Source: a virus. Taken from it: a DNA stretch of 32,947 bases. This document shows, piece by piece, positions 1,592 to 30,338 of the stretch. The notes beneath the pieces were generated by a model. That model was not told the origin of the DNA, did no database searches, and worked only from the letters and a program-made list of their open reading frames with translations. The first letter of the stretch is position 1. Every line of letters begins with the position of its first letter. The stretch spans positions 1-32,947 of the IMG/VR virus record IMGVR_UViG_3300042562_000634. One strand, written 5' to 3'. A program made the position numbers and the translations under genes.

Positions 1592-1592
1592 A

Positions 1593-5391: not shown

Positions 5392-6165
5392 ATGGCAAGT
5401 GAAAGCATAGGTACTTTAGTACCAACAAGAATTCCAAGTCTTGGAGACGCAGCTGATATTCAGGTTGCTCTTAGAACATATCATTATGGGTCTGAAAGTT
5501 TTAATACATCTGAAACAAATAAGGCTAACTTAGTTAGCCCATCAATTGCATATACACTTAATAGCCTAGACGAACGAATTGATGCTATTGAAGAAGGAGA
5601 ATCTCTTTCATCTTCAAGCTTTAACGCAAAAGGAGATTTGCTTTCAGCTTCTGGAAATGACGTTTTATCTGTAGTCACTGTTGGAGCAAATGGAACAATC
5701 TTAACTGCAGACAGCGCAACTGCTTCTGGATTATCATGGGCCACTCCTGCTGCAGCAACTGCTATAACTACAACATCCTCTACAACAGATGCAAAAATTG
5801 CCTGGGATACTACAAACAAGCAAATTCAAGTTGGTAATGGAACAAGTCTTTTAAATTTTCAACCATTTAATGTAAATACAACTGCTAAGACTGCAGGATA
5901 TACATTTGTTTTATCTGATGCTAGTACATTGGTTCAAATGAATGGTGCTTATGCATTTACCGTTCCACTTAACGCAACTGTTGCGTATCCTATTGGAACT
6001 CAAATACATTTAATTGCGCTTACAACAGGAGTTACAGTTGCTTTTACTGTTGGAATTACTTCATATGCAACCCCAGGAGCAAAAATACGTGCAGCTGGAT
6101 CAATGGCAACATTAATAAAGCTAAATACAGATACTTGGGTACTTGCAGGAGACTTGATTGCATAA
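5392..6165 (+). CDS. Tail-fibre protein with shared C-terminal module
   Basis: 257 residues. A short coiled region (SLDERIDAIEEGE, about 57-69) precedes an AKGDLLSASGNDVL...WATPA segment. That segment recurs in the 594-aa fibre at 10137-11921 (AKGDLIVGSADDAV...WAAPA). The last 90 or so residues, with YPIGTQIHL and ending in TWVLAGDLIA, closely match the end of the 854-aa fibre at 12455-15019 (YPIGTSIDI, TWVVYGDLTA). The shared end probably forms a knob or attachment domain. No signal peptide. TAATG couples it to the next gene. Receptor binding or a structural shaft are both possible. Confidence 0.7.
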   Translation: MASESIGTLVPTRIPSLGDAADIQVALRTYHYGSESFNTSETNKANLVSPSIAYTLNSLDERIDAIEEGESLSSSSFNAKGDLLSASGNDVLSVVTVGANGTILTADSATASGLSWATPAAATAITTTSSTTDAKIAWDTTNKQIQVGNGTSLLNFQPFNVNTTAKTAGYTFVLSDASTLVQMNGAYAFTVPLNATVAYPIGTQIHLIALTTGVTVAFTVGITSYATPGAKIRAAGSMATLIKLNTDTWVLAGDLIA

Positions 6166-12454: not shown

Positions 12455-15019
12455 ATGGCAACAAGAATGCAACAGCGTAGGGGAACTGCAGCACAGTGGA
12501 TCTCTACGAACAGTGGCAACGGTCCTATCCTAAACGCAGGAGAAATCGGGTACGAAACCGATACAAACAAATTTAAAATTGGTGATGGTACAAATCATTG
12601 GATAAACCTTGATTACTTTATTGATGCTAATTCAACAGCAAATCCATCATTTGGTTCAAGCATTACATTTGAAGGTGCAACAGCAAATGACCATGAGACA
12701 ACTCTTACAGTGGCTGAACCTACTGGAGACCGTACCATTACATTTCCTGATGCAACTGGCATTGTAGTATTATCTGATAGTAGCGGAAATGTTACTATCC
12801 CAGGAAGTCTTACAATAACTGGAGCTACAACTACTATAGATAGTACAGTAATTAATCTTCAAAATGAACTTAAATTTGAAGGTACAACTGTAAATGATTT
12901 TGAAACAAGTTTAGTTGGTGGAGACCCTACAGCAGATAGAACTATCACTCTGCCAGACTTAACAGGAACTGTAGTTCTTGATCAAGGTGCTCAAACCCTA
13001 TATACTAAATCAATTAATTTAAATTCAAACATTTTAACTGGAACAGCTGCAGAGTTTAATGCTGCTTTATCAGATGCAGATTTTGCTACCCTTGCTGGTA
13101 CACAAACACTAACCAATAAAACCTTAACATCTCCCAATGTTAATGAAGCAGTTGCTCTTCTAGCAACAGCTACAGAGTTAAATGTTCTTGATGGAATTAC
13201 TTCATCTACAGCAGAATTAAATATTTTAGATGGTGTAACTTCAACAGCAGCCGAACTAAATATCCTTGATGGTGTTACCTCTTCTACAGCAGAACTAAAC
13301 ATTCTTGATGGAGTAACTGCTACTGCAGCAGAATTAAATAAACTTGCTGGCGTAACTGCTACATCAGCTGAAATTAATCTTTTAGCTGGACTTACTTCTA
13401 CCGCTGCAGAATTAAATATTCTTGACGGAGCAACACTATCTGTAACCGAATTAAATTATGTTGACGGAGTAACCTCTGCTATTCAAACACAGCTAAATAA
13501 TAAGCAAGCAGTTGTTACCGATGTGTCAGATACTGAAATCGGATATTTAAATGGTGTTACTTCAGCTATTCAAACACAGTTAGATGCTAAAGCACCATCA
13601 TCTTCCCCAACTTTTACAGGAACTGTAGTTTTGCCTTCTGGCACAGTAACAAGCGCAATGATTCTTGATGGCACAATCGCAAATGCAGACATTAGTGCAA
13701 CAGCAGCAATTGACTGGACAAAAATTTCTGCATCATCAACTATATCTGAAACCGAACTTGGATATTTAGATGGTGTAACATCAGCAATTCAAACTCAACT
13801 ATCTGGAAAGCAAGCAACTGTTGCTAACGTATCAGATGTTGAAATTGGATATCTTGATGGTGTGACTTCAAGCATTCAAACACAGCTAGATGCTAAGTCA
13901 ACTGATTCTAAAACTGAAACTCTAACTAATAAAACTTTAACCTCTCCAGTAATTAATACACCTACTGGAATCACAAAATCAGATGTTGGACTTGGAAATG
14001 TTGACAATACAGCAGATTCAAACAAGCCTGTTTCTACTGCTACACAAACAGCACTTGATCTTAAGTTAGCACTTGCTGGTGGAACCATGATAGGAGCACT
14101 TACACTTTCTGCAGATCCATCATCATCACTGCATGCAGCAACCAAGCAGTATGTTGATAATACAGCATCAGGAGTTATTGCAAAGCCACAGGTTCTTGGA
14201 GCAACAACAGCAAATATTGATGCTACATACAATAATGGTACAGCAGGTGTAGGCGCAACTCTTACACATAACACCAATGGAGCATTTCCTGCAGAATCAG
14301 GTGGCGCATCAGGTTGGGCAGTTGGAAAAGGTATTCTTGTAAAGAATCAAACTAATAAGGCTCAAAATGGTAGATACTACGTCTCAAATATGGGATCTGT
14401 TTCAACACCTTATGTTCTTACTCGTTGTACATATTGTGATGAAGCATCAGAGATTCCAGGCGCATACATATTCGTACAAGATGGAACAAACGCTGGGACA
14501 GGGTGGATTCAGGTAGTTGCAGACCCTGCAACATTTGTTGTTGGAACAGATAACATTGATGTATTCCAGTTCTCAGGTTCAGGAACAATCACAGCAGGAA
14601 CAAATATTTCTGTAAGCGGAAATGAAATTTCAGTAGTCGCAACTCCATCACTTTCTGGCGTAGCATTTACAGATGGTACACAGACAAAAGAAGGCGTACC
14701 TTCACGAACACCTATTATTCAAAAGACGGCAGCATATACTCTGTCAGCACTTACAGAGAGAGATTCCTTAATTGAAGTTTCTTCAGCAACTGGTGTAACA
14801 ATATCAATCCCAACAGATGCTACACTTAACTATCCAATCGGAACATCTATTGACATTCTTCAAACTGGAGCGGGACAAGTGACAATTGCTGCAGTAACCC
14901 CAGGAACAACAACAGTTAACTCAACACCAGGATTAAAACTAAGAACACAATGGTCGACTGCAACTCTTTTCAAAAGAGCAGCAAACACTTGGGTTGTTTA
15001 CGGCGATCTAACAGCGTAA
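12455..15019 (+). CDS. Very large tail-fibre protein (854 aa), Mtd-N-like start
   Basis: Residues 7-55 (QRRGTAAQW...LNAGEIGYETDTNKF...GDGTNHW) match the Mtd N-terminal type domain found at the tail-attached end of many fibres. After two FEG-N-DFET/DRTITFPD segments come eight tandem 13-residue repeats of the AELNILDGVTST type (residues 240-343), then degenerate EIGYLDGVTSAIQTQLD copies and a LTNKTLTSP element. From about residue 570 there is a HAATKQYVDN linker and a domain with KGILVKNQTNKAQNGRYYV, frequent in phage fibres. The last 90 or so residues match the end of the 5392-6165 product. It is likely the main side or receptor-binding fibre. No retroelement or variable-repeat pair is visible here. 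Confidence 0.78.
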   Translation: MATRMQQRRGTAAQWISTNSGNGPILNAGEIGYETDTNKFKIGDGTNHWINLDYFIDANSTANPSFGSSITFEGATANDHETTLTVAEPTGDRTITFPDATGIVVLSDSSGNVTIPGSLTITGATTTIDSTVINLQNELKFEGTTVNDFETSLVGGDPTADRTITLPDLTGTVVLDQGAQTLYTKSINLNSNILTGTAAEFNAALSDADFATLAGTQTLTNKTLTSPNVNEAVALLATATELNVLDGITSSTAELNILDGVTSTAAELNILDGVTSSTAELNILDGVTATAAELNKLAGVTATSAEINLLAGLTSTAAELNILDGATLSVTELNYVDGVTSAIQTQLNNKQAVVTDVSDTEIGYLNGVTSAIQTQLDAKAPSSSPTFTGTVVLPSGTVTSAMILDGTIANADISATAAIDWTKISASSTISETELGYLDGVTSAIQTQLSGKQATVANVSDVEIGYLDGVTSSIQTQLDAKSTDSKTETLTNKTLTSPVINTPTGITKSDVGLGNVDNTADSNKPVSTATQTALDLKLALAGGTMIGALTLSADPSSSLHAATKQYVDNTASGVIAKPQVLGATTANIDATYNNGTAGVGATLTHNTNGAFPAESGGASGWAVGKGILVKNQTNKAQNGRYYVSNMGSVSTPYVLTRCTYCDEASEIPGAYIFVQDGTNAGTGWIQVVADPATFVVGTDNIDVFQFSGSGTITAGTNISVSGNEISVVATPSLSGVAFTDGTQTKEGVPSRTPIIQKTAAYTLSALTERDSLIEVSSATGVTISIPTDATLNYPIGTSIDILQTGAGQVTIAAVTPGTTTVNSTPGLKLRTQWSTATLFKRAANTWVVYGDLTA
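13172..13483 (+). repeat. Eight 39-bp repeats encoding a 13-residue fibre unit
   Basis: The tandem units follow A-E-L-N-I-L-D-G-V-T-S-T-x with substitutions at positions 5, 7 and 9-13. Nucleotide identity is imperfect because of synonymous changes, so the repeat is old or under protein-level selection. Confidence 0.8.
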
Positions 15020-15036: not shown

Positions 15037-16215
15037 ATGGCTAAGAAGACGGGTAAACGTTCAGCTGCATCAAATGACTTTTTAGAGCCATTAAATGTAA
15101 CAAGCTTAACAGCCTCAGATGTTGGAACATCCCGTCCTTATTTAGCTACAGCAAATACCACCTCAACAGCTTCAGCAGCAGGTACAGGAGCCGCTGTAAA
15201 CCTTGCATGGACTCTTCCAGCTTTGTCTCCAGCAGCAACATCTTATACTATTACAACTACCCCCTCTACATATACTGTTACAACAGGCAGTGCAACTGCT
15301 TCTTATACCTTTCAAGGTCTTGCTTCAAATACCGCATATACATTTTTAGTTAGACCCTCTAATGCTTCTGGCACCGCAACAGGAACAACATCTTCTTCAG
15401 TTACTGTAACAACAGTCCCTGCCAAAATGTCTGCACCAACCCCAACTGCTGGAGTTAATCAAAACTCAATTACTTTCTCAGCACCAGCAACAGGTGGAAA
15501 AACAATTTCAGGATATAATATATCAGGCAGCGATGGCACTTCTGGTTCTGGTGCTACTTCTCCTATTGTTATTGGAGACACTGCTGGTACATCACAAACT
15601 TATACAATTACTGCTACTAATGCCAATGGAACATCTATTGCATCTGATGCGTCTGGATCTATTACTACTTTAGCCCCGTTTTTTCCTCCGTTCTTTCCCC
15701 CGTTCTTTCCACCTTTCTTCCCGTTCTTCCCACCTTTCTTCCCATTCTTCCCACCTTTCTTCCCACCATTCTTCCCACCATTCTTCCCGTTCTTCCCATT
15801 CTTCCCACCGTTCTTCCCACCGTTCTTCCCGTTCTTCCCATTCTTCCCACCTTTCTTCCCACCTTTCTTCCCGTTCTTCCCACCTTTCTTCCCACCTTTC
15901 TTCCCACCTTTCTTCCCGTTCTTCCCACCTTTCTTCCCATTCTTCCCACCTTTCTTCCCACCATTCTTCCCACCGTTCTTCCCGTTCTTCCCACCATTCT
16001 TCCCACCATTCTTCCCACCGTTCTTCCCACCATTCTTCCCACCATTCTTCCCATCGTTCTCTGCGTACGTTTATATATCTGGACCAACCTCAATCTCTTG
16101 CGGAAATCAATGTCTGGGCAGTGGATACACAGCATCAGGAGCAGCCTCGGTAGCCCTTTCCAACTGCGGTGGCTCTGGTCCAAGATGTTGCAGATGTAAT
16201 AATACACCTGGTTAA
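15037..16215 (+). CDS. FN3-domain protein with a 126-residue FFPP/FFP hydrophobic array
   Basis: 392 residues, cytoplasmic-type start (MAKKTGKRSAASN). Two FN3-like domains (about 40-130 and 133-212) are followed by 34 tandem units of Phe-Phe-Pro-Pro or Phe-Phe-Pro (residues 215-340). A Cys-rich tail (about 341-392) has six cysteines, including GPRCCRC. The array is half Phe with no charge, unlike any standard fibre shaft I know. It could be a rigid polyproline-like rod with stacked aromatic rings, a self-assembling sticky segment or a membrane-active region. The shorter blocks in the 6165-7646 product share the motif. The gene directly precedes the oxygenase operon, which makes its prolines a candidate substrate (inference). 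Confidence 0.75.
   Translation: MAKKTGKRSAASNDFLEPLNVTSLTASDVGTSRPYLATANTTSTASAAGTGAAVNLAWTLPALSPAATSYTITTTPSTYTVTTGSATASYTFQGLASNTAYTFLVRPSNASGTATGTTSSSVTVTTVPAKMSAPTPTAGVNQNSITFSAPATGGKTISGYNISGSDGTSGSGATSPIVIGDTAGTSQTYTITATNANGTSIASDASGSITTLAPFFPPFFPPFFPPFFPFFPPFFPFFPPFFPPFFPPFFPFFPFFPPFFPPFFPFFPFFPPFFPPFFPFFPPFFPPFFPPFFPFFPPFFPFFPPFFPPFFPPFFPFFPPFFPPFFPPFFPPFFPPFFPSFSAYVYISGPTSISCGNQCLGSGYTASGAASVALSNCGGSGPRCCRCNNTPG
15679..16056 (+). repeat. 34-unit Phe/Pro tandem repeat (12-bp and 9-bp units)
   Basis: Twenty-three FFPP units, ten FFP units and a terminal FFPS make 126 codons. The first two to three units use mixed Phe codons (TTT and TTC). The rest use TTC almost only, with synonymous CCA/CCG/CCT variation at the Pro positions. 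The plus strand is pyrimidine-rich. Confidence 0.92.
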
Positions 16216-16256: not shown

Positions 16257-16457
16257 ATGACTGATTCAGTAAAACCATGGGATTTATTAAATCCAAACAA
16301 GCCTAGATCTTTAGATGAGGTTGCTGCAGAAAGACTTTCTATTTGCAAAGGTTGTGAACATTTTATTAAACTAAGCAAACAATGCAAAAAATGTGGTTGT
16401 TTTATGAATCTTAAGACTAAGCTAGAAGAAGCAACCTGTCCAATTGGCAAATGGTAA
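16257..16457 (+). CDS. Small zinc-ribbon protein (DUF6171-like), second copy
   Basis: 66 residues with the pattern ICKGCEHFI...QCKKCGCFM...ATCPIGKW, giving Cys positions suitable for one zinc site. It is closely related to the minus-strand 1593-1787 product. The last base of its TAA is the first base of the next ATG (TAATG), so the following oxygenase-fold protein is translationally coupled. This reproduces the gene order of the minus-strand operon. The role is unknown; a carrier, adaptor or regulator for the oxygenases is possible. It is probably translated from a leaderless mRNA. Confidence 0.8.
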   Translation: MTDSVKPWDLLNPNKPRSLDEVAAERLSICKGCEHFIKLSKQCKKCGCFMNLKTKLEEATCPIGKW

Positions 16458-17014
16458 TGGAAATTTCCAACGGGATATATTTATATGATATAAATATTGA
16501 TTTAAATGAAACAATTGAAGGCTTAGAGGATATGTCTGAGATGGGGAATACTGATATTAAATGGAGAAGTACACTTCCTTTCAGTTTAAAACATAAAAGT
16601 ATTGGATTTGTAAATCTAGAAGATGATTCTAAAATAGATCAAGAGGATGGCTGGCATCTATTTTTACACGACTTATCTAAAACTTCTTCTGAGGTTTTTA
16701 TAGAATCAGCAATAGATTATTTTAAGAAAAAAAATATGCCTAAGCCAGCATTTTCTATTTTTGTTTTTTTTAGATCTGAGGATGGCTCTAAGCAAGTTAA
16801 TATGAAAGATAATTATGGAAATGAAACTGGTAGAACAGTTTCTTTTAAGTATTTTATTAATGATAATTATGACGGTGGAGAAATAGAGTTTGTAAATTTA
16901 GGCATAAAGATTAAGCCAAAATCTGGACAACTTCTTATACATCCAGCAGGATATGAATATTTAGAGCATGAAGTTAAAAATGGTAATAAATATCAGCTAT
17001 CTTGTTGGGTTTAA
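16457..17014 (+). CDS. 2OG-oxygenase-fold protein lacking an iron ligand (probable pseudoenzyme)
   Basis: 185 residues from the ATG in the TAATG overlap. The hallmark strand KYFINDNYDGGEIEF (131-145) and the C-terminal HPAGYEYLEHEV...NKYQLSCWV align with the active oxygenases downstream. The distal His is H171 and the 2OG contact position is Lys (K178). At the HxD site, however, the sequence reads N-M116-K-D118, so the first iron-binding His is replaced by Met. Without it, normal Fe(II) chemistry is unlikely. The reading frame is intact, so the protein may be a scaffold, a partner subunit or an enzyme with altered metal binding. A weak terminator and a new promoter follow. Confidence 0.72.
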   Translation: MEISNGIYLYDINIDLNETIEGLEDMSEMGNTDIKWRSTLPFSLKHKSIGFVNLEDDSKIDQEDGWHLFLHDLSKTSSEVFIESAIDYFKKKNMPKPAFSIFVFFRSEDGSKQVNMKDNYGNETGRTVSFKYFINDNYDGGEIEFVNLGIKIKPKSGQLLIHPAGYEYLEHEVKNGNKYQLSCWV

Positions 17015-17029
17015 TAAATATAGTAGTGC

Positions 17030-17047
17030 TGGCACTTGCCATATTTT
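17030..17047 (+). terminator. Weak terminator-like hairpin
   Basis: TGGC-ACTT-GCCA (17030-17041) is followed by TATTTTT. The stem is only 4 bp, so it may attenuate rather than stop transcription before the next promoter. Confidence 0.3.
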
Positions 17048-17066
17048 TACTTAATTAATGCTTTTA

Positions 17067-17075
17067 TGATATAAT
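17067..17075 (+). promoter_or_regulatory. Extended -10 promoter TGATATAAT
   Basis: Predicted +1 is at about 17082, giving a 24-nt leader with a purine-rich AAAGATAGGA (17091-17100) before the ATG at 17106. Confidence 0.5.
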
Positions 17076-17105
17076 AAAGTTATACCATTTAAAGATAGGA
17101 ATCTT

Positions 17106-17816
17106 ATGAATATCTATGATGAAAACGAAAACCCTTGGTTTACTAAAGATAGATCAGAAACAGCTTTAACAAGAATTGCAAGAGTAATGCCTCAAAACAA
17201 CATTAGTGTTAGTAATCCAGGTTTAGGTTTAAATATTTATCACAATGTATTTTCCAAAGACGATTCAGAAAGATATATTGATACACTTGAATATAATTTA
17301 TCTGGAGATAAAAAATATAAGTGGTCAGAAGCTACAGTAACAAATTCTCCAAATCCAATTAAAAAAGCAAGAGATTGTGTAGATTTTAAATACAAGCAAG
17401 AAAATCTTGGACCAAAAGATGAGCACAACGAAAGTCTTATTGATTTACATGAAGAAATCTACCAAAAGTTAAAAATGTGCATAGATGATTATGCACATTA
17501 TTGGGGAATTAATGTTACATATTACGAAGCATTTAACTTTGTAAAGTATGAAGGTGAAGGTACACACTTTAATATTCACGCAGATCATGGCCCAGCATAT
17601 AACTGTACAGTTTCTGCTGTTATTTATATTAACGATGACTATGAAGGCGGAGAAATTAAATTTCCAAGATTAGATAGCTTTGTTCATACTCCAAAAGTTG
17701 GTGATATAGCTATATTTCCTTCAAACTATATTTATGAACATGCATCGCTGCCAATGAAATCAGGAACAAAATATTGTGTTGTTGTTATGACAGATATTAA
17801 TGAATTGAGTCATTAA
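17106..17816 (+). CDS. 2OG-Fe(II) oxygenase, prolyl-4-hydroxylase-like (Lys type)
   Basis: 236 residues. H158-A-D160 binds iron, YINDDYEGGEIKF (174-186) is the family hallmark, H212 is the distal ligand and K222 (SGTKY) is the 2OG contact. Lys at that position is the arrangement of collagen-type prolyl 4-hydroxylases, whereas many relatives use Arg. The N-terminal half is alpha-helical and probably carries substrate specificity. Its best match in the window is the 18597-19253 product (YNCTVS...NDDYEGGE; SGTKY). The stop overlaps the next gene (TAATG). Confidence 0.85.
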   Translation: MNIYDENENPWFTKDRSETALTRIARVMPQNNISVSNPGLGLNIYHNVFSKDDSERYIDTLEYNLSGDKKYKWSEATVTNSPNPIKKARDCVDFKYKQENLGPKDEHNESLIDLHEEIYQKLKMCIDDYAHYWGINVTYYEAFNFVKYEGEGTHFNIHADHGPAYNCTVSAVIYINDDYEGGEIKFPRLDSFVHTPKVGDIAIFPSNYIYEHASLPMKSGTKYCVVVMTDINELSH

Positions 17817-18586
17817 TGAATAAGTTAGCAATCTTTAGATCTTTTAGACCTTGGTTAGATAAAGATAGTGTTTCTGTTCCAGCACCAACACAAAGTATTA
17901 TTCCACAATGGTATAAAGATGCAGATAGATTTGCAAAAAATCCAATTAATAATGAATATTATAATGCACCAAAAGAAACGTGCCCTTTTCCAAAAGAAGG
18001 CACAGTAGATGACTATGGAAAAATTCCTACATGGAAAGCATGCCCTGCAATTATGGATGCATTTTCAACAGGGTATGTTTTTAAAACTCCTTGCGACTTA
18101 GTATTTTCTAAAAATGCACAAGGTGTTATTGGTGTAACAATTGAAGATAAAAAATACCAAGATTTTTGCACTGAAAGACCTCCTATGCCACAGTTTGAGC
18201 ATCCAAAAGGATTCTATCAACATCATTTTGCTTGGAGTTCAGATTGGGGACTTGAGCTTCCAGAAGGGTACAGTGCGCTATTTATGACACCAATGAATAG
18301 GTTTGATTTACCATTTTTAAATACAACAGGAATTGTTGACTCAGATAAAGTTCATCTACTTGGAAGTTTTCCATTTTTTATTGCGGAAGGCTGGGAAGGA
18401 ACAATTCCAGCAGGCACTCCATACCTACAAGTTTTACCATTCAAAAGAGAAAACTGGAAAAGTGAAGTAGAGATATTAGATCAGTCTAAAATTTATGATA
18501 AAATGTTTAACAACATGAAGTTTTATAGACAGCCTGACGGCGGGGTATATAAGAATAAAGTTTGGTCAAGACGAGAATACAAATAA
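17816..18586 (+). CDS. DUF6065-related / cupin-like protein
   Basis: 256 residues starting in a TAATG overlap. The order of conserved-looking segments is IPQWYKDADRF (about 29-39), WKACPAIMDAFSTGYVFKTPCD (split as WKACPAIMDAF and GYVFKTPCD, about 73-95), a His-containing FYQHHFAW (about 138-145), LPEGYSALFMTPMNR, and PAGTPYLQVLPFKRENW (about 200-216). This arrangement resembles phage proteins related to the DUF6065 group and suggests a beta-helix/jelly-roll fold. It is distantly similar in layout to 19253-19969. The chemistry is unknown. It sits between two oxygenase genes, so it presumably acts in the same process. Confidence 0.55.
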   Translation: MNKLAIFRSFRPWLDKDSVSVPAPTQSIIPQWYKDADRFAKNPINNEYYNAPKETCPFPKEGTVDDYGKIPTWKACPAIMDAFSTGYVFKTPCDLVFSKNAQGVIGVTIEDKKYQDFCTERPPMPQFEHPKGFYQHHFAWSSDWGLELPEGYSALFMTPMNRFDLPFLNTTGIVDSDKVHLLGSFPFFIAEGWEGTIPAGTPYLQVLPFKRENWKSEVEILDQSKIYDKMFNNMKFYRQPDGGVYKNKVWSRREYK

Positions 18587-18596
18587 GGAGAATAAA

Positions 18597-19253
18597 ATGG
18601 AAACATGGACAGAAAAAATAGACCTTGGCGATGGAATTTTTTGTTACAAGGGTGTAATTAAAAAAGAAATTGATGTAATAAAAAGACTTGAAGATAATCT
18701 TAAACCAGAGGGAGACACTACTGGGTACAGCTGGCAACCTGCGTATGTAGGCTACAAGCAACTGATGCCAGACTATAGAGATTGTAATGATTTTAAGTTT
18801 AAGAAAACAGATATTGAAAATGATAAAAGTCAAGTCAGCTTAAACCTTCAATCACTTTGGCAAGATCTTTATGATGTAAAGTTACCAGCAGTAGAAGATT
18901 ATTGCAGAATGTATAATATTCATAATTTAAAATATTGGGAAGCTTTTAATTTTATTAAATATGGTCAAGGTCAACACTTTATGGAACATCACGATCATGG
19001 GTTTTCTTATAATTGTACTGTTTCTTTAGTCTCATATGTTAATGATGATTATGAAGGTGGAGAGCTTTTCTTTAGACTACAAAATCTAAAGGTTAAAGCA
19101 GAGGCTGGGGATTTGTTTATTTTCCCATCAAATTTTATGTATCCTCATCAAGCAATGCCAGTAACTTCTGGAACCAAGTATTCTATTGTAACAATGCTTG
19201 ATTACAGTAAAAAGTTTCATACTCCAGAAATGTATAGTGCAGAGGCAGATTAA
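18597..19253 (+). CDS. 2OG-Fe(II) oxygenase, prolyl-4-hydroxylase-like (Lys type)
   Basis: 218 residues with AAGGAG just upstream of the ATG. Iron ligands are H131 and D133 (EHHDHG), with H184 as the distal His; K194 in SGTKY is the 2OG contact. YVNDDYEGGELFF (147-159) is the hallmark strand. It is the closest paralog of the 17106-17816 product, sharing WEAFNF.KY and YNCTVS segments, which indicates a local duplication. The stop overlaps the next ATG (TAATG). Confidence 0.85.
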   Translation: METWTEKIDLGDGIFCYKGVIKKEIDVIKRLEDNLKPEGDTTGYSWQPAYVGYKQLMPDYRDCNDFKFKKTDIENDKSQVSLNLQSLWQDLYDVKLPAVEDYCRMYNIHNLKYWEAFNFIKYGQGQHFMEHHDHGFSYNCTVSLVSYVNDDYEGGELFFRLQNLKVKAEAGDLFIFPSNFMYPHQAMPVTSGTKYSIVTMLDYSKKFHTPEMYSAEAD

Positions 19254-19969
19254 TGTTTAATATCTCAGTTGAAAAAACACAGGGAGCTCTATTTGACATT
19301 CAGCCCATGTCAATTAAAAGAGATTGGATGGATGTAACATCAGAAGGCCATGCCTATAGATGTTTTCCAGTAACCCAGTCAAACGTAATTGGCTGGAGTC
19401 TTTCTTGTGTAGAAGATATTGAGTTTATTTGGGATGGAGTTAATGATCAAACTCCAAATCGTATTGAAATATTCAGCCCATTGGGAGCATATTCTGGAAG
19501 AGGTCAATCCTCTATAAGTTTAAATACTGGTTTAGTTTTTAGAACAGACAAAGACGTAAGTATTTTTACTATTAATCCAGTAAATTATTTTAGTGATGAG
19601 TTTGAAACAATGTCATCATTAATGAGCACCTCTTTTTATGACAATCCTCTGCCTTTAGCTATTAAAGCAAAGGTAGCAAATAAGAGAGTGGTTATCAAAG
19701 CTGGAACTCCAGTTGCTACAATTATTCCTATATCTTTGTCAAATTTAAACGGTACAAATATTGAAATTGTTAAGTACCAAGACAACGATAGAACAAGATT
19801 AGAAGCAAATATTGCCTATGGGAATGCTGCACAGGAAATAAATTCTACTGGAAAATGGACAGATTGGTATAGGGATGCGGTAAATGAAAAAAAAGAAACT
19901 CAGGGATCTCATGAGGTAAAAATATTAAAATTAGGCGTAACAGATAAAACGAAGGGTGATATAATATAA
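19253..19969 (+). CDS. DUF6065 family protein
   Basis: 238 residues. Segments AYRCFPVTQSNVIGWSLSC (about 34-52), IEFIWDG, SGRGQSSISLNTGLVFRTD (about 81-99), FTINPVNYF and IKAGTPVATIIPISL (about 166-180) follow the order of the DUF6065 family, whose function is not known to me. It shares the closing GTP.xxx.P feature with 17816-18586, so the two may be distant paralogs. It starts in a TAATG overlap. The promoter of the next gene lies inside its last codons. Confidence 0.65.
   Translation: MFNISVEKTQGALFDIQPMSIKRDWMDVTSEGHAYRCFPVTQSNVIGWSLSCVEDIEFIWDGVNDQTPNRIEIFSPLGAYSGRGQSSISLNTGLVFRTDKDVSIFTINPVNYFSDEFETMSSLMSTSFYDNPLPLAIKAKVANKRVVIKAGTPVATIIPISLSNLNGTNIEIVKYQDNDRTRLEANIAYGNAAQEINSTGKWTDWYRDAVNEKKETQGSHEVKILKLGVTDKTKGDII
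19957..19965 (+). promoter_or_regulatory. Internal extended -10 promoter TGATATAAT, leaderless
   Basis: It lies within the 3' end of the DUF6065 gene and ends 6 nt before the ATG at 19972, so it would produce a leaderless mRNA for the second half of the oxygenase operon. Confidence 0.6.
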
Positions 19970-19971
19970 AT

Positions 19972-20652
19972 ATGGAACAAAACAAAGACTCATATACAGT
20001 AGTTAAACGAACACCATCTATAACTCCATCTGGGTGGTTTGGAGATAGCAAAGACATGATTGTCGAGCTAGAAAACTTTATGACCCTAGAGGAAATAGAA
20101 TTTCTAGAAAAATCTGCCAAATCTTTAACAATTTGGGATGTAACTGAAAGCCATATGAATGAAAATGGAACTGTTACATATGACTCAGATTATTGGAAAG
20201 ACAGGGTTGCAACCAGCCCAACACTAAATAAGAATGATCCAACTATTGCACCAGTAATTGCTGGACTATTTGAAAGACTAAAACCAATTGTTGAAGAATT
20301 TTATAAGGTCGAAGTTATTCCAACTGGGACAACTATTGTTAAATGGCTTCCTGGGCAATTTCAAAAGCCTCATGCAGACAAAGAACTTCATGAAGGACCA
20401 GATGCTGGAACTCCAAATGATTTTCCTAACTATGACCTTTCTAGTTTGTTTTATTTAAATGACGACTATGAAGGTGGAGAGTTATACTTCCCACTACAGG
20501 GCGTACAGTTTAAACCTAAAAAGGGTGCTGCTTACTTTTTCCCAGGGGATAAAAACTATATTCATGGAGTAACTGAGATTACAAGTGGTTTAAGATTTAC
20601 TTGCCCATTCTTTTGGGAGATTACAAAGCATACAGGAGATAGGCAACCTTAA
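19972..20652 (+). CDS. 2OG-Fe(II) oxygenase, P4H-like (Arg type)
   Basis: 226 residues. H134-A-D136, YLNDDYEGGELYF (161-173), distal H198 (YIHGV) and R208 (SGLRF) complete the active site. Arg rather than Lys contacts 2OG here. An insertion of about 20 residues between the HxD motif and the hallmark strand (EGPDAGTPNDFPNYD) distinguishes it from its neighbours and may shape the substrate entrance. It has its own leaderless promoter. The next gene starts 1 nt after its stop. Confidence 0.85.
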   Translation: MEQNKDSYTVVKRTPSITPSGWFGDSKDMIVELENFMTLEEIEFLEKSAKSLTIWDVTESHMNENGTVTYDSDYWKDRVATSPTLNKNDPTIAPVIAGLFERLKPIVEEFYKVEVIPTGTTIVKWLPGQFQKPHADKELHEGPDAGTPNDFPNYDLSSLFYLNDDYEGGELYFPLQGVQFKPKKGAAYFFPGDKNYIHGVTEITSGLRFTCPFFWEITKHTGDRQP

Positions 20653-20653
20653 T

Positions 20654-21526
20654 ATGAATGACAAACATCTTGAAGCAATAGAGATATATCCTAACATTCT
20701 TGTATATAAGAATATGTTTAAAGATGTTTCAAAATCTTATAAAGTATTAACAGATTCATTTACAGAAACAGAAGACAGACTGTTTAGCCCTTGGACACAA
20801 TGGTCTATTTTTGGAGATTATTTAAATCCAATAATTCCTAATTTTTCTATGTCAGATAAATATGGAAACTTAAAAACCATAGAAACAACAACACAGATTA
20901 AAGAAGATCAAAAAAATTTTGGTATAGAAATGATGGAAAACTTTCATTTAGTTACTGAAGACTACATTAAAAGATATAATATTGATATAGATTTAAACGA
21001 AACATCTATAGATGAAAATGGAAATACTGTACCAATTTGGCGATGGACAGGTGGAACAATAGGTAAGTATCATATTAGTACTACTGATGAGCAGGTTGGA
21101 ATGAGATATCATTCAGATTATCAAAGAGAGCAGGGCTCTGCTCCAGGTTATAAGTTTGTTATAACATGTACAATATATTTTAATGATGACTATGAGGGTG
21201 GAGAGATTGACTTTGCAATGGGAGATAAACTTGTAAAATACAAACCAGAAGCAGGAGATTTATTAGTTTTTCCATCAGGACACCCAGACTACCTTACAGA
21301 GGATGGAATGCCATATCTTCATGGAGTGATGCCATCATATAATAAAAATAAAATTTTGTCAAGAATGTATTGGCAAAAATATCAAAAAGGAACTGATGAA
21401 TGGTATGCAAAAGAAAAAGAATTTGGAAAAGAAGTTTGGGCTAATATGCAGCCAGAATTAGAGGAAAAGTTTAGACAAGAACATCCTCAAAGGACTACAA
21501 TAGAAAATGGAGTAAGAATACAATGA
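20654..21526 (+). CDS. 2OG-Fe(II) oxygenase, P4H-like (long form)
   Basis: 290 residues, the longest in the array. H153-S-D155, YFNDDYEGGEIDF (175-187) and distal H223 (YLHGV) are present. In place of GxR the end reads NKNKILSRMYW; K233 aligns best with the 2OG contact, but R237 is an alternative. A charged helical tail of about 50 residues follows the core, ending HPQRTTIENGVRIQ. The last codons overlap the next gene as ATGA. Confidence 0.82.
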   Translation: MNDKHLEAIEIYPNILVYKNMFKDVSKSYKVLTDSFTETEDRLFSPWTQWSIFGDYLNPIIPNFSMSDKYGNLKTIETTTQIKEDQKNFGIEMMENFHLVTEDYIKRYNIDIDLNETSIDENGNTVPIWRWTGGTIGKYHISTTDEQVGMRYHSDYQREQGSAPGYKFVITCTIYFNDDYEGGEIDFAMGDKLVKYKPEAGDLLVFPSGHPDYLTEDGMPYLHGVMPSYNKNKILSRMYWQKYQKGTDEWYAKEKEFGKEVWANMQPELEEKFRQEHPQRTTIENGVRIQ

Positions 21527-22281
21527 ATCTAGAAAATAAAAAAAGAATAACAAAAGATATAGTTATTTATGAAAACTTTATAAGCAAAGAAGATTGCAAA
21601 AAAATGATTCAAGCCTTAGATGCTCAAGCAGATAACGGTGCAATTTCTTGGATGCCTATTTCATTTTATGAGTCATACTCCTCTGTACTTCCACAAGACA
21701 ATGATCAAGAATTGCTTGATGCTGGGCTATCTCCAACTATATTTTCAGACATTGAAAAAACAATGCCAAAGGCAATCGCTTCAGTCCATGACCTTGACCC
21801 AAAAACAATTTCTAAGATTGGGTATCACACACAAAAATGGGAGCCAGGAGCATACGCAAGAATACACTCAGATAATACAGATGCTGAAGGAAATTCAGGC
21901 GCTTTTACAAGAAGCCGATATGCAGGCTTTCTATATCTTAATGATGATTTTCAAGGAGGACTACTTAAGTTTCCAGGTCAAGACATAGAAATTAAGCCAG
22001 AAGTTGGAATGCTTGCTGTTTTTGACGGGGGATTTAGCAATATGCACGAAGTATCCCTAATAGAAAGTGGAGTAAGATATACCATTGGATCTTTCTGGGA
22101 TGACAGAGAAGAAGATGCTTATCCACAAGAATTAAGAGATGCCTGGGCTGCAGAAATGAAAGAGACTAGAGCAAAACAAGAAATTGAAAGAGCAGAATGG
22201 CAAGATCTTTTAAAAGAAGGCTGGAAGCTAGATGCTGAAGGAAATAAATACAAGGTAGAGGATCTGGAAAACAATGCCTAA
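21523..22281 (+). CDS. 2OG-Fe(II) oxygenase, P4H-like (Arg type)
   Basis: 252 residues. H115-S-D117, YLNDDFQGGLLKF (138-150), H175 (NMHEV) and R185 (SGVRY) form the expected site. The hallmark has QGGLL in place of EGGE. A C-terminal acidic/basic helix of about 60 residues, probably coiled, follows the core and could mediate oligomerisation. It starts in an ATGA overlap and its end overlaps the next gene by 8 nt, so translation of the three genes is tightly linked. Confidence 0.84.
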   Translation: MNLENKKRITKDIVIYENFISKEDCKKMIQALDAQADNGAISWMPISFYESYSSVLPQDNDQELLDAGLSPTIFSDIEKTMPKAIASVHDLDPKTISKIGYHTQKWEPGAYARIHSDNTDAEGNSGAFTRSRYAGFLYLNDDFQGGLLKFPGQDIEIKPEVGMLAVFDGGFSNMHEVSLIESGVRYTIGSFWDDREEDAYPQELRDAWAAEMKETRAKQEIERAEWQDLLKEGWKLDAEGNKYKVEDLENNA

Positions 22282-22933
22282 TTTCTTAACAGATATATTA
22301 AAAGAAAATAACTTTCAGGTTGAAGAAGTCACTGATGACATTGTTTTAGTTAAAGATTTTTTTTCTAAAGATGAACTAGATCAAGTTTTTGAAGTTATAA
22401 ACTCAACTCCAAATGAAGAATGGTTTATAGAATATCATGCTAACTTAAAAAGTTTTTGTTTCCAAAAATTTGGAAGATATGATGTTGATAATTTAGTTGC
22501 TGAAGGAAAATTTGAAATAACTCAAAACTGGCAAGATAAAAATTTAAACATAGGACAGTATCCCTTTCAACAAAATCTATTTGATAGATTAAATAACTTA
22601 GTTCAAATTGTTGATGATACAATAGAATTAAGTGGTTTTGCAACAATTCAAAGAATGCAGGAAGGTGTTGAGTTAAAAGCTCATACCGACCAGGATACAG
22701 ACCCGTCAATTAGATATGCTGCTATTCTGTATCTAAATAATGACTATGTAGATGGAGAATTATTTTTTCCAATTAATGGTCTAGAGTTTAAACCAGAACC
22801 TGGGACAATGCTTATTTTTCCAGGAAACGCAGAGTATAATCATGGAGTTAAGCATGTAGGTGCTGGCCCAATTAGATACGTACTGGTGGGGTTTATTAAA
22901 GAAAAAGGATTTTATGAAAAGAATAAATACTAA
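22274..22933 (+). CDS. 2OG-Fe(II) oxygenase, P4H-like (Arg type)
   Basis: 219 residues. H137-T-D139, YLNNDYVDGELFF (153-165), H190 (YNHGV) and R201 (PIRY) are present. The hallmark varies at two places (NND, VDGE). The N-terminal region (IVLVKDFFSKDELDQVFEVI) resembles the start of the minus-strand oxygenase 1010-1591, whose central region is also similar (FATIQRMQEG versus YVALQRYRQG), so these two may be each other's nearest relatives in the window. Confidence 0.85.
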   Translation: MPNFLTDILKENNFQVEEVTDDIVLVKDFFSKDELDQVFEVINSTPNEEWFIEYHANLKSFCFQKFGRYDVDNLVAEGKFEITQNWQDKNLNIGQYPFQQNLFDRLNNLVQIVDDTIELSGFATIQRMQEGVELKAHTDQDTDPSIRYAAILYLNNDYVDGELFFPINGLEFKPEPGTMLIFPGNAEYNHGVKHVGAGPIRYVLVGFIKEKGFYEKNKY

Positions 22934-22944
22934 GGGAGAAACAA

Positions 22945-23676
22945 ATGAATAAAGAACTGCTAGATCCAAAAGTATACTATTATACTGACGCAATTGAAAA
23001 TTTTAAAACTTTTAAAGAAATCTGGAAAGAGCTAGACACTCTTGAGCAATACACAGAGTCAGGTGTAAATGTTTGGAACCCTTGGACATCTTCTAACGAT
23101 AAAACCTTCATCTATGGAGAAACAAAAACATTTGACATCAATGCTATTAACAACCTTATTGGAGAAGTAGCAGAAAAAAGTAAATATATATATGACGCTA
23201 TTATGACTACGCTATACAATGTCTGTAAAGACTATGCATCTTCTTTAGGTGATTTTGATGAGCCAAGACTTTTCCCAACATTTAACATTAAAAAGTATAA
23301 TACTGGAATGGCTATGGGAGCTCACTTTGATCAACTTGATGGTGATAAGACATTGAGATATTCACTAGTTATGTATTTAAATGATGATTGTGAAGGCGGA
23401 GAAATATCTTTTCAGTTAAAAGACTATGATGGTGGATGGACAAGCTCAGAAGGTTGGGTAAGCGGTGCGCCAGCAGTAGATCTAGACTATGATCTCGCAC
23501 TTGAAAACAAAGCAATTAGCTTTGGTGTAAAACCTAAAGAAAATAGCGTTGTGATATTTCCAGCATATGCTCCATATTTCCACACAGCACACACAGTTAA
23601 GTCTGGTGTAAAGTATATGGTTCCTGGTCACTGGATCCATAACAACATGGAGCTTAATAATAGTCAGAGCATGTAA
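22945..23676 (+). CDS. 2OG-Fe(II) oxygenase, P4H-like, with insertion (Lys type)
   Basis: 243 residues with AAGGGAG upstream of the ATG. H127-F-D129, YLNDDCEGGEISF (144-156), distal H213 (YFHTAH; H216 is an alternative) and K223 (SGVKY) are visible. An insertion of about 35 residues (YDGGWTSSEGWVSGAP and following, 161-195) lies between the hallmark strand and the distal His and is absent in the siblings. Aromatic-rich insertions at this place could form a substrate lid. It is the last oxygenase of the array; the SDR gene starts immediately after its stop. Confidence 0.85.
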   Translation: MNKELLDPKVYYYTDAIENFKTFKEIWKELDTLEQYTESGVNVWNPWTSSNDKTFIYGETKTFDINAINNLIGEVAEKSKYIYDAIMTTLYNVCKDYASSLGDFDEPRLFPTFNIKKYNTGMAMGAHFDQLDGDKTLRYSLVMYLNDDCEGGEISFQLKDYDGGWTSSEGWVSGAPAVDLDYDLALENKAISFGVKPKENSVVIFPAYAPYFHTAHTVKSGVKYMVPGHWIHNNMELNNSQSM

Positions 23677-24345
23677 TTGAAAACTGCTATTGTTACTGGG
23701 GCAAGCAAAGGCGTAGGGCTAGCAACAGTTAAACGACTGTCTGAAAATGGCTATAAAGTTATTGCTGTTTCAAGAAACCTATCTAAAGTGTCTGAGTTAA
23801 TATCTGATAATGTTGAGGTATATAACTTAGATATTACAGACTCTAAAGCAATAGAAGAGTTTTTTGAAAAATACAAAGATATTACTTTAGATCTTTTGGT
23901 TAATAATGCTGGTGGAGGCTCAGGCCCAACTTATATTATTAATGAAACCCCAGAAAACTTTAGAAAAGCATACGACATCAACGTCACTGGCCCCATGTAC
24001 TTATCTCAATTATTTGCACCATGTATGGAAAGATCAGAATCTCCAACCATTATTTTTGTTACTTCTTTTGGTGGAAAAGTTCCATATCGTGGTGGAGGAA
24101 ATTATACAAATGCCAAAAGAGGTGAGCGTGGTTTGATTGATACAATGAGACTTGAGTTCCCTCAATTTGGAATTAAGATTACAGAAATCTGTCCAGCAAC
24201 TATTGATACCCAAGAACAAAAACGGGATCAAGCATTAACGGCAGAAGATTTAGCAGAAGCAATTTACTGGGTGGGATCATTACCAAGTCACGTCAATATA
24301 AATGAAATTGAAATGTGTCACATTCATAGTAGCAAGTATGGATAA
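23677..24345 (+). CDS. Short-chain dehydrogenase/reductase (SDR), TTG start
   Basis: 222 residues, classical SDR. The NAD(P)-binding motif TGASKGVG is at residues 7-14, NNAG at 76-79, and the catalytic set is N102, S130, Y143 and K147. Length is a little below the usual 250. SR (32-33) after the second strand hints at NADPH preference. The only sensible start is the TTG directly after the TAA of the last oxygenase, so the genes are coupled. It could oxidise a hydroxyl group made by the oxygenases, reduce a keto-sugar or act separately; the sequence does not decide. No further gene follows before the nrdJ promoter. Confidence 0.82.
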   Translation: MKTAIVTGASKGVGLATVKRLSENGYKVIAVSRNLSKVSELISDNVEVYNLDITDSKAIEEFFEKYKDITLDLLVNNAGGGSGPTYIINETPENFRKAYDINVTGPMYLSQLFAPCMERSESPTIIFVTSFGGKVPYRGGGNYTNAKRGERGLIDTMRLEFPQFGIKITEICPATIDTQEQKRDQALTAEDLAEAIYWVGSLPSHVNINEIEMCHIHSSKYG

Positions 24346-26573: not shown

Positions 26574-29500
26574 ATGTCTAACCCATCTAATTTATATGCA
26601 GAAAAAATTTACTCAGAGCACCCTCTGGTACTTTGGGCACTAGACGATCAAGCAGATTACGTAAGTTTAATTCCTGATGCACAAAGAAATATAGCATCTC
26701 TTTGGAATGACACAGAATCCTGTACTTTAAGTTCTGGGTCAGCACCTGCAGGAGAACCTTTTCCTGATAGTCCTACAAGCTTAGTGTCTTGCAATGTTCC
26801 AGCAGGAGCATCTGGGGAATCAATTATATTAAGTCCAGATCTAGGTCCAGATGATCCTGATCCAAAAGTTAACTTTCAAACCCTTAATACAACATTAGGA
26901 ACATTTTCTATTGGTTCTTATTTTTATATTGATAGCTTATATATTAACTCTATTTCTATTGGATATCAATATGAAGATACTACTACCCTAGAAGTCGTTC
27001 AAAAGTTTAAAACTTTTACAGATCCAGCATACCAGTCATGGTCTTTTATGTCAGAAACATTTGAGATCCCTGACGAAAACACAAACTTTAAAATAATTAT
27101 AAAAATATTAAAGTCTTCAGGCGGAGAAACATCTGCTGATTACAAAGTTTATTTTAATGGAATAACCACAGGACAATGGTCTGAAGAATTTCATAAAGAA
27201 TCTTTAGGAGTAACACCAGCATCTTTTCCAGAAACAATTGCAATTGATACAACAGATACCGTTATTCCAGCATCAGCCTATGGAGTATCTAGTGATACCG
27301 CATATTATTTGGTAAAGAATAATGCTCTTCTTGCAAAAAATACAAGCATTCCCCTAGTGTTCGGTGCCTCTGGATTAACTAAGGTTATTCCAAACACATC
27401 AAACAAACCTTCCTTAATATTTCCAGGTCAAGGATTTTTAAATAAATCTGGGCAGCATAAAGAATACACTGTAGAGTTCTGGGCAAGAATAATTGCAGAT
27501 TCTCCAGATCCAAAAAGAATATTTGGACCAATTGCTTCTACAGATGGACTCTATGTAGATTCAGGCTTTTTAACTTTAGTTATTGGTGGTCAGTCAAATT
27601 CTCATTTTGTTGGTGAGTGGTTTAGACCAATGCTTATCCATATTAGATTAATTAAGAATTCTGTGACGGTATTGGTAAATGGAGAACAGGTAATAGAAAT
27701 TGCTATTGATACCACATCTTTAGCATTACCAGACTTACTAAATGCACAGCTAAAAAGCCAAGACTGGCTTGGATTTTATGCATACGAGAATGTAAGTTTG
27801 ATTGAAGTAGACTGTTTTGCTATATACTCTTACCAAGTTTCTGTAACTGTTGCTAAACGTAGATGGGTTTATGGTCAAGCCGTATCTTCAGCACAATCTA
27901 TCAACTCATCCTATGGTGGAACTTCTGCTTTTATAGACTATTCATTTTCAAACTATACCGCAAACTATAACTATCCAAGCTTTGCACAATGGCAACAAGG
28001 AAGCTTTGATAATCTAGAAACAACATCTTTAGAGTTGACAACACCATCCTATAGTTTGCCAAACATATTTTTAGATACTAAAAGTTTAGATGATTTGTAT
28101 ACTGACTGTAAAGCAATACAGACAGATCAAGAATCTGGAGCATTTCCACACAAGTTTTTAACATTTAGACCAAACTCAACTTGGAGTGGACTAGGAACAT
28201 ATCTAAACTTTCCAAAATTAAATATTTTAAATGATAAGGTTAAGTCTATTTATGGGGTATTTGGCAGTAATGTATTATTGCTTGATGCAGAATACTACAA
28301 CACTTCTCCAGCAGACTATATTGAAGCAGGGTATTATAATACTACCAGCTGGACAGAATTTTTTGATGCTGGAAATTCAGGAAATAATCAAACATTAATT
28401 AAAATTTATAATACGCTAACAGGTGATTTTTTTATTGTTAGACTTAATGAAGCCGTTATTGAGTATGTTTTAAATTATAATAAAGAAGAACAACTAGTGT
28501 ATACAACAGAAAACATTGAGTCTGAACAACTTTTTGCAGTTGGAATTAATATTGATGATTTATCTAATGTTTTTGGAGGCAATGTTTCAGCATTCTTTGG
28601 TAATGTAAATGGACTAAAAGTCTATGTTGCGGGAGACGAAGAAACATCTAACTCATTCTTTGGAAAAATTTACTCATTAGGATTTACAACAGAGCTTAAT
28701 CATAAATCAATATCAAACTATTTTAATGAATACGGTGTTGTTAAATTTGATGATTTATCTGCCCCTGGAGTAACAGAAGAAACTAATGCTATTGCTCTTA
28801 TAAATCATTTAGCCAGCTATACCCTGTTGCCAACAGAAGCATACGATGAATTCTTCCTTGATATTGGAGTATCTGGACACTGGCAAGACTACCTTCCACT
28901 TTCTTATTTTGCTAAATATGTTAATAACGCACAAGGGGCTTCTTACTATGATTTAGATTTTTTACAGTTTAACCTTGGATATCCATCACCATCTAAACTA
29001 CTAGAAAAAGAAATTAATTCTTCGTGGACATATGAAGATTTAAGAGAACAATATTCAGCACCTATTCAGCAAACTTATTATCAAATAGATAATAGCCTTA
29101 TTACTGGATGGAATGATTATGAAGATTTAGCTCAAAAAGCATTGAAGTACTACGAGTATGACACATCAGAATCTTTTGTTAAAAGCTATGTTACTTTTCA
29201 ATATATAGCAGAAGGAGCAAACGCTCTTGATGAAACCTTTAATATTAATGTTCCAGCCAAAGAAGGATCAATTATTGATATTGATAACTACCCAGACTGG
29301 GCTGCTAGTAAATTTGAAGTTGTAGACAATACAATTATTTATCCTAGCAAGTCTGTAGATTTCAATGACTTAGCAGTTGTATATTCTATTGACTTTAATG
29401 TGCGTGGAATTATTAATAGACCAATTAAAATTAAAGAATTAGAGATAGCTTCGCAAGCATTGAGTGATAATGCCTTTAACTCGGTAGGTACTAGGTTTGG

Positions 29501-30338
29501 AGTTGATCTAGTGCCATACAAAAAATCTGGAATTTATTTTGACTATAAGTCAAAAAATCCTTTTAGTATTTATAAGTCAAGCACACCATACCTTTATTTA
29601 ACAAAAAATTCTGGAATAGAGGTTCGTGGGGACTTTAACTTTGAAACAAATCGTGGCATTGCTATGCCAATTAATAAAGAATTGTCAGATGAATATCGTG
29701 TAAGCTCAATGCAAGCCTGGATGTTCGCAAATCAAGATTTTTTTTCTGCTTCACCAATTGAAATCTTTGAAATTAAATACAAAGAAGATATTATTAAATT
29801 TTACATGGTTGCAGACAGCCCATCTGGATCAAGAGCTAAGATATATGCGACTAGTAGTTTAACTGGAACAGAGTACACAAAGCTAACATATTTCTGGAAC
29901 GGCATATCAGTTCAAAATCCAGTTATTACAATAAAAGAATGGGGATCCCTAGGATTGCAGTTCTCATCTGCACTAAACTTTGACCTATACACTGGTGCAA
30001 TTAATCTAAATGGTCCAATACTGTTTAATAATATATCTTTCTACCAGGCAAACAATTTACAGACAATACAGAGCATTGTTACTAGGCCTTGGCTAAAGGT
30101 TTTGAACAGTGATGGAGAAAAGCTTTGGTCGTACTGGAGTGAAAACTTTAATTGGCAAGAAGCCTTAGTCGTTTCAAGCTCAGAGCTATATGGAGTCAAC
30201 CCAACAGATGTTTATAAGAACTACCTAGGAACTAATAAGATTATCATTGATGATAATGAGGGTATGACGTTTGATTCTAATAAGATGAAGATATATACTG
30301 ATACTACATGGGATACAAAGACCCTCTTGCCAGTCTAA
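26574..30338 (+). CDS. Very large LamG/lectin-like tail or adhesion protein (1254 aa)
   Basis: No signal peptide or membrane segment. The start YAEKIYSEHPLVLWALDD is followed by a jelly-roll-like region (about 80-200, with QSWSFMSETFEIP and DYKVYFNG). A concanavalin/LamG-like domain follows (about 265-420), with EYTVEFWARI and an NSVTVLVNGEQV strand typical of that fold. The remaining 800 or so residues are aromatic-rich and beta-structured without a family I recognise, with a possible second LamG-like part near 600-720. LamG-type folds bind glycans, so host attachment or fibre trimming is plausible. Position directly upstream of the head genes is unusual for a fibre. The product could equally be a head fibre or a large decoration protein. 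Confidence 0.7.
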   Translation: MSNPSNLYAEKIYSEHPLVLWALDDQADYVSLIPDAQRNIASLWNDTESCTLSSGSAPAGEPFPDSPTSLVSCNVPAGASGESIILSPDLGPDDPDPKVNFQTLNTTLGTFSIGSYFYIDSLYINSISIGYQYEDTTTLEVVQKFKTFTDPAYQSWSFMSETFEIPDENTNFKIIIKILKSSGGETSADYKVYFNGITTGQWSEEFHKESLGVTPASFPETIAIDTTDTVIPASAYGVSSDTAYYLVKNNALLAKNTSIPLVFGASGLTKVIPNTSNKPSLIFPGQGFLNKSGQHKEYTVEFWARIIADSPDPKRIFGPIASTDGLYVDSGFLTLVIGGQSNSHFVGEWFRPMLIHIRLIKNSVTVLVNGEQVIEIAIDTTSLALPDLLNAQLKSQDWLGFYAYENVSLIEVDCFAIYSYQVSVTVAKRRWVYGQAVSSAQSINSSYGGTSAFIDYSFSNYTANYNYPSFAQWQQGSFDNLETTSLELTTPSYSLPNIFLDTKSLDDLYTDCKAIQTDQESGAFPHKFLTFRPNSTWSGLGTYLNFPKLNILNDKVKSIYGVFGSNVLLLDAEYYNTSPADYIEAGYYNTTSWTEFFDAGNSGNNQTLIKIYNTLTGDFFIVRLNEAVIEYVLNYNKEEQLVYTTENIESEQLFAVGINIDDLSNVFGGNVSAFFGNVNGLKVYVAGDEETSNSFFGKIYSLGFTTELNHKSISNYFNEYGVVKFDDLSAPGVTEETNAIALINHLASYTLLPTEAYDEFFLDIGVSGHWQDYLPLSYFAKYVNNAQGASYYDLDFLQFNLGYPSPSKLLEKEINSSWTYEDLREQYSAPIQQTYYQIDNSLITGWNDYEDLAQKALKYYEYDTSESFVKSYVTFQYIAEGANALDETFNINVPAKEGSIIDIDNYPDWAASKFEVVDNTIIYPSKSVDFNDLAVVYSIDFNVRGIINRPIKIKELEIASQALSDNAFNSVGTRFGVDLVPYKKSGIYFDYKSKNPFSIYKSSTPYLYLTKNSGIEVRGDFNFETNRGIAMPINKELSDEYRVSSMQAWMFANQDFFSASPIEIFEIKYKEDIIKFYMVADSPSGSRAKIYATSSLTGTEYTKLTYFWNGISVQNPVITIKEWGSLGLQFSSALNFDLYTGAINLNGPILFNNISFYQANNLQTIQSIVTRPWLKVLNSDGEKLWSYWSENFNWQEALVVSSSELYGVNPTDVYKNYLGTNKIIIDDNEGMTFDSNKMKIYTDTTWDTKTLLPV

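Follow-up and report, generated by a model that had tools for sequence, protein, structure and literature searches.

Gene content of the oxygenase block

We have analysed a block of 2-oxoglutarate (2OG)-Fe(II) oxygenase genes in the virus record IMGVR_UViG_3300042562_000634 of IMG/VR. The whole stretch, hereafter the window, comprises 32,947 bases; end repeats were not found in it and it is probably a fragment. The block (positions 16257-24345) consists, in order, of a DUF6171 gene, the oxygenase genes A1 and A2, the DUF6065-like gene D1, A3, the DUF6065 gene D2, A4 to A8 and a gene for an SDR-type oxidoreductase, all on the plus strand and separated by gaps that are mostly tiny or zero. Gene spacing and strand are the basis on which the block is called an operon, because promoter and terminator scans of the window were at chance level. 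Rfam and tRNA scans of the window gave no matches, nor did a megablast search of the block against phage records.

The eight PF13640-type oxygenase genes of the array are co-directional and span 16451-23676: A1 (16451-17014), A2 (17106-17816; PF13640, 2e-10), A3 (18597-19253), A4 (19972-20652), A5 (20654-21526), A6 (21523-22281), A7 (22274-22933) and A8 (22945-23676). PF13640 scores lie above the Pfam cut-off for A2 to A8 and, barely, for a ninth oxygenase gene, A9 (1010-1621, minus strand; 6.4e-6, 27.5 bits, cut-off 27). A1 falls under that cut-off (26.1 versus 27 bits), yet matches PHROG 61 (4e-10). The small Cys-rich protein of the first gene (16257-16457) matches PF19668 above cut-off (1.9e-7), and the last gene, SDR (23677-24345), matches PF00106 (1.3e-40). 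D2 (19253-19969) is assigned to DUF6065 by PF19541 (4e-25; 89.1 bits, cut-off 26.6) and had no match among phage records at 1e-5; D1 (17816-18586) is tied to the family through PHROG 7084 alone, Pfam being silent. An earlier note on this DNA, made from the sequence alone, had described eight tandem oxygenase-fold genes led by a zinc ribbon, interleaved with two DUF6065-type genes and closed by an SDR, with a ninth oxygenase at 1010-1591. Open reading frames exist at every position that it named, and the matches given above agree with its assignments. A9 extends somewhat further and A1 starts at 16451 rather than 16457, such start-codon differences being trivial.

The oxygenase paralogs are separately conserved

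A1 to A9 are 20-42% identical to one another and could be aligned through the HxD...H...K/R site. The iron triad and the following Lys or Arg are retained in every aligned ortholog of A2 to A9 (up to 71 per gene; 71 of 71 for A2). The tetrad reads H-D-H-K in A2 and A8 and H131-D133-H184-K194 in A3, where H184 and K194 are invariant and the Lys lies 10 residues past the distal His, as in prolyl-4-hydroxylase (P4H). Arg takes the place of that Lys in A4, A6, A7 and A9. Median ratios of nonsynonymous to synonymous substitution (dN/dS), calculated from ortholog pairs with dS below 1.2, were 0.07-0.27 for A2 to A9, and the SDR gene gave 0.05. The intact sites and low ratios of A2 to A9 therefore mark distinct, old genes maintained separately under purifying selection and not recent dosage copies. 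This sustains the earlier view that simple dosage does not account for the paralogs; the suggestion made along with it was that each may have one substrate or site of its own.

A1 is the exception among the eight, as had been noticed before: MxD replaces HxD, and the distal-His column holds Glu with a His adjacent. The first iron His is missing in all five copies seen, and A1 occurs in few relatives. It is probably a pseudo-enzyme, to judge from these residues, and is a candidate for a conserved one (oxygenase fold, iron His lost).

Relatives found with A3 in viral contigs share the order A2-D1-A3-D2-A4-(A5 slot)-A6-A7-A8-SDR. A3, D2 and A4 are core genes of all lineages; the A5 slot is variable and holds A5 alleles, a glutathione peroxidase (GPx)-like gene or nothing. 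A9 sits inside or after the main array.

The array is linked to Phe-Pro-repeat proteins

The most informative gene lies directly 5' of the block, outside the interval that the earlier note had marked. Its product (15037-16215, plus strand) has fn3 domains (PF00041, 1.1e-7), a 125-residue (F)FP/FPP tract (nucleotides 15679-16053) and a short Cys-rich C-terminus. The window also holds a second fn3-like Phe-Pro-repeat protein (6135-7646, plus strand; true start likely near 6165) with two short FFPP tracts at nucleotides about 6481-6541 and 7268-7327. Close relatives have, as the nearest sizeable gene on the 5' side of the block, one whose product combines fn3-like domains with a Phe-Pro tract and ends in a short, variable and often Cys-rich segment. 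Among 243 distinct tracts, located with a pattern that permitted only F or Y before Pro, all 4455 of 4455 Pro runs were preceded by Phe; the runs consist of one or two Pro, and the residue ahead of the Phe is F, H, Y or S. The repeat is not merely a DNA-level array, since all four Pro codons are in use.

In seven loci (L061, L064, L066, L068, L069, L078 and L079) the FFPP protein ends not in a Cys-rich tail but in a Hint-like (hedgehog/intein) segment, GCIEAETELLTP...FIAGGFLVHNK, which was judged by eye with no Pfam call; self-cleavage at this end is possible.

Linkage between the array and FFPP genes was examined in collections of viral contigs. The scans list matches up to a limit and cover fragmentary contigs; the loci are related by descent, so the counts below describe linkage and not independent events. 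A scan seeded with A3 returned at least 80 loci with 87-100% identity, and, judged by one search pattern applied uniformly, an FFPP gene lies upstream of the array in all 61 that were informative. Seventeen loci had less than 2.5 kb upstream and two lacked the array start; none had room but no FFPP gene. The converse scan, seeded with codons for FFPPFFPF and using no oxygenase query, found an array gene no more than 2.5 kb downstream of the tract in 75 of the 83 loci with room, the first core gene being A2 in 70 and A3 in five. With HFPPFFPP codons, 78 of 90 loci with room had an oxygenase or DUF6065-type gene in the 2.5 kb that follow and 12 had none (25 further loci without room were left out). 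In the control scan, seeded with collagen-like GPxGPxGPxGP codons, an oxygenase was nearby in only 3 of 58 loci (Fisher test, about 1e-26 for the FFPP-seeded and 1e-25 for the HFPP-seeded loci against this set). Array-type genes flank the FFPP gene on both sides in L136 and L192. When 12 FFPP contigs, mostly ones with no array gene beside the tract, were searched whole, PF13640 genes were found in 10.

The earlier note had proposed hydroxylation of both collagen-like and Phe/Pro-repeat fibres, and a collagen-like gene is indeed present in the window (3649-4386). A co-occurrence survey of related phages had been named beforehand as a possible refutation; in it, the array tracks Phe/Pro-rich proteins and not collagen-like genes, so that co-occurrence supports the Phe/Pro half of the proposal but lends no support to the collagen half.

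Lineages and hosts

The array occurs in groups that are far apart. The window's portal protein is 70-98% identical to that of the close group, where the contig holds a portal, and 51-52% identical in a second group (G018 and G024). A distant type comprises two contigs from metagenome-assembled genomes (L206 and L207) plus 76 viral loci retrieved with L207 as the starting point, with an A3 about 41-44% identical to that of the window and portal matches that are partial (22-24%) or lacking. Here the order is A4-A3-D2, TauD, GPx-like and further oxygenase genes are present, and a small upstream protein carries (F/Y/H)FPP repeats; in L206 it is PASTA-type. An FFPP gene was found in 54 of the 76 viral loci, 19 were too short to tell and three had none in the locus, although in two of these (L309 and L365) an FFPP open reading frame lies farther off on the contig. 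Over all FFPP-linked arrays, A3 falls into 10 clusters at 60% identity and five at 50%, there are at least five gene orders, and the arrays hold six to ten oxygenase genes.

A scan of genome contigs with A3 found arrays only in three contigs from metagenome-assembled genomes (L205 to L207), which look like misbinned phage, besides lone P4H-like genes in, among others, Nitrospira. WhiB, which serves as an actinophage marker (PMC10202952, PMC6802176), is encoded on 11 of 15 long contigs covering all array groups; among the control genomes, Corynebacterium alone matched. These WhiB genes on relatives' contigs suggest that the hosts are probably actinobacteria.

Predicted folds of A3 and the DUF6065 proteins

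AlphaFold2 models of A3 and D1 had pLDDT values of 90.9 and 92.8, respectively. The best PDB matches of A3 are prolyl hydroxylases, with template modelling (TM) scores of about 0.6: Pseudomonas putida P4H, Chlamydomonas P4H with (Ser-Pro)5, PHD2 and the viral collagen P4H of PBCV-1. By sequence, A3 matches Bacillus anthracis P4H and procollagen hydroxylases.

D1 is predicted to have a beta fold weakly like that of dUTPase and dCTP deaminase (E about 1e-3; TM to target mostly 0.3-0.6). Its GIVDSDKV resembles dUTPase motif 3 by eye; the remaining four of the five motifs were not recognised and the fold match is weak. Both DUF6065 genes appear to encode a degenerate form of this fold. D1 also has relatives in haloarchaeal viruses and on rhizobial plasmids, none of them with a known role. 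Profile searches of D1 and D2 against the PDB gave only weak matches to viral nucleoproteins, which were regarded as chance.

Proposed function and alternatives

Because the array almost always sits directly behind the FFPP gene, its enzymes are suggested to hydroxylate the FFPP protein, with proline as the presumed target residue. On balance, we lean towards reading the block as a module for hydroxylating virion proteins, with the xFPP repeat of the upstream tail-type protein as its main substrate. The phage would make a tail-type protein whose xFPP stretch is long and very hydrophobic, and oxygenases with a P4H-type site would hydroxylate prolines, and perhaps aromatic residues too, in the xFP/xFPP tract before or during assembly; other Phe-Pro tail-type proteins of the same phage could be further substrates. 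The paralogs may divide the positions among themselves or act one after another; a tract of 24-172 residues that mixes FPP and FP and varies in the first residue offers several kinds of site. DUF6065 proteins might assist binding or assembly, perhaps by holding the enzymes together, and the SDR, GPx-like and FkbM-like proteins could process products or manage by-products. The likely purpose would be to keep the Phe-Pro stalk in solution, to stiffen it or to impede its recognition by the host. Lysine, which the earlier note had named as a second target, is unsupported, as is glycosylation as a set step: a GT32-like gene was found in only 10 loci.

Several points weigh against this proposal. Eight enzymes exceed the obvious need of one simple repeat, and it is hard to see what a dUTPase-like fold in DUF6065 would contribute to a hydroxylation scheme. 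The specificity of A3 cannot be read from its fold, because TM to P4H is only about 0.6. The related loci reduce to about three to five independent lineages. The two whole-searched FFPP contigs with no oxygenase, both probably fragments, count on the same side, and in most loci, whichever the lineage, the FFPP gene is itself preceded by a large gene of fibre size, so that the fibre is linked to the array as well.

This last point is also an argument for an alternative that we regard as unlikely, namely that another virion protein is modified and that the FFPP protein is a mere neighbour in the tail module. The best candidate would be the large fibre protein (12455-15019, plus strand), with an Mtd_N-type start (PF18454, 1e-12) and PHROG tail matches. 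In cyanophage S-SCSM1, moreover, four tandem 2OG genes lie beside tail-fibre genes, and no FFPP tract was found there (five of six segments certainly scanned). The window's fibre, however, is only 3% Pro, the FFPP gene is the nearest 5' neighbour of the array, scans with FFPP codons alone recover the array, and in L136 and L192 the FFPP gene is the one enclosed.

That the array builds a glycan, a lipid or a small molecule, or adds to one, as a change to the host surface or a secondary metabolite, is judged quite unlikely. A cyanophage cluster that includes 2OG enzymes has been suggested to play such a role (PMC7824862), and the SDR, FkbM-like and GT32-like genes and the TauD-family genes of the distant lineage would fit it. 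Against it, the window's array showed no genes for a carrier protein, a nonribosomal peptide or polyketide synthase, or sugar nucleotides, a core with conserved active sites is tied to a repeat protein, and the fold of A3 matches P4H first.

The array might also consist of auxiliary metabolic genes that redirect the host's 2OG and nitrogen metabolism or act on its proteins, EF-Tu for instance. Cyanophage 2OG genes are usually read in this way (PMC9602691), and the top fold match of A3 is an EF-Tu-binding P4H. One enzyme would be enough to consume 2OG, however, and this explanation, which we consider very unlikely, leaves the FFPP linkage, the place among virion genes and the separate conservation of the paralogs unaccounted for.

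Modification of nucleic acids or nucleotides is hardly to be expected: it is favoured by weak TET/JBP matches, the dUTPase-like DUF6065 fold, a class II ribonucleotide reductase (RNR) gene after the array in the window and a D1 relative near RNR in HRTV-8, but scores with the TET/JBP profile PF12851 reach at most 20 bits (cut-off 34.9), no TET-like fold is among the top 50 structure matches of A3, and no RNR is labelled beside distant-lineage arrays. Mimicry of EVH1-type FPPPP ligands was considered and dropped, because bacterial hosts are not known to have EVH1.

Beyond the hydroxylation module itself, we tentatively put forward that phages have a post-translational modification system of a new class, in which a mobile assembly line of several oxygenases might oxidise (x)FPP, itself a novel type of structural repeat, and so yield an aromatic-proline stalk that is heavily hydroxylated and lacks any known counterpart, in several distinct actinobacterial phage groups. 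No phage system hydroxylating such proteins was found in the literature searched, coverage of which was partial, with most subscription papers outside it. 2OG oxygenases are common accessory genes in aquatic phages, where their role is usually sought in host nitrogen metabolism; the array gives a large set of them a concrete candidate substrate and makes their role testable. If the proposal is true, phages subject proteins of their own tails to elaborate hydroxylation, and the enzymes would offer new tools for hydroxylating Phe-Pro repeats.

Relation to known systems

The closest parallels, both among the A3 matches, are the viral collagen prolyl hydroxylase of PBCV-1 and a procollagen lysyl hydroxylase/glycosyltransferase, solved as 6ax6, which we take to be mimivirus L230. 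Like the array, these are virus-encoded 2OG enzymes with a P4H- or lysyl hydroxylase-type site, thought to act on a repeat protein of the virus. The array differs in its six to ten paralogs per block, its Phe-Pro rather than Gly-X-Y repeat, its DUF6065 partners and its setting in bacterial viruses. Bacterial P4H (Bacillus anthracis, Pseudomonas putida) shares the fold and HxD...H...K site of A3 but is cellular, acts on EF-Tu according to PDB titles and has no array beside a repeat protein. The Chlamydomonas extensin-type P4H, whose (Ser-Pro)5 structure is the second fold match of A3, acts on a proline-repeat protein as proposed here, but is eukaryotic and has a different repeat (Ser-Pro).

The statement of the earlier note that phages usually carry one or two such genes was wrong: T4-like cyanophages carry one to five, and S-SCSM1 carries 24 (PMC9602691). 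These oxygenases (PHROG 61) are of the same superfamily as the array, can reach high copy number and lie partly near fibre genes. They differ in being scattered, in belonging to four Pfam subfamilies and in their host group, and are read by the authors as host-metabolism genes (PMC9602691). The four tandem genes of S-SCSM1 (MK867354, 210680-213294) offer a cultivated case in which fibres might be modified with no FFPP tract involved.

Accessory genes and other observations

An FkbM-like methyltransferase gene (379-1032, minus strand; PF05050, 0.0025, under cut-off) lies beside A9. In other phages its relatives likewise adjoin A9, on the downstream side of the array, which suggests that the pair is probably part of the array module and agrees with the earlier proposal that the FkbM-like gene belongs to the system. 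GPx-like genes recur in arrays of both lineages (L062, 10078-10851; L207, 8162-9145) and once replace A5. Between RNR and the portal gene lies a gene for a 1254-residue protein (26574-30338) with no Pfam or PHROG match. The large fibre gene contains a 117-base tandem repeat at 13166-13456.

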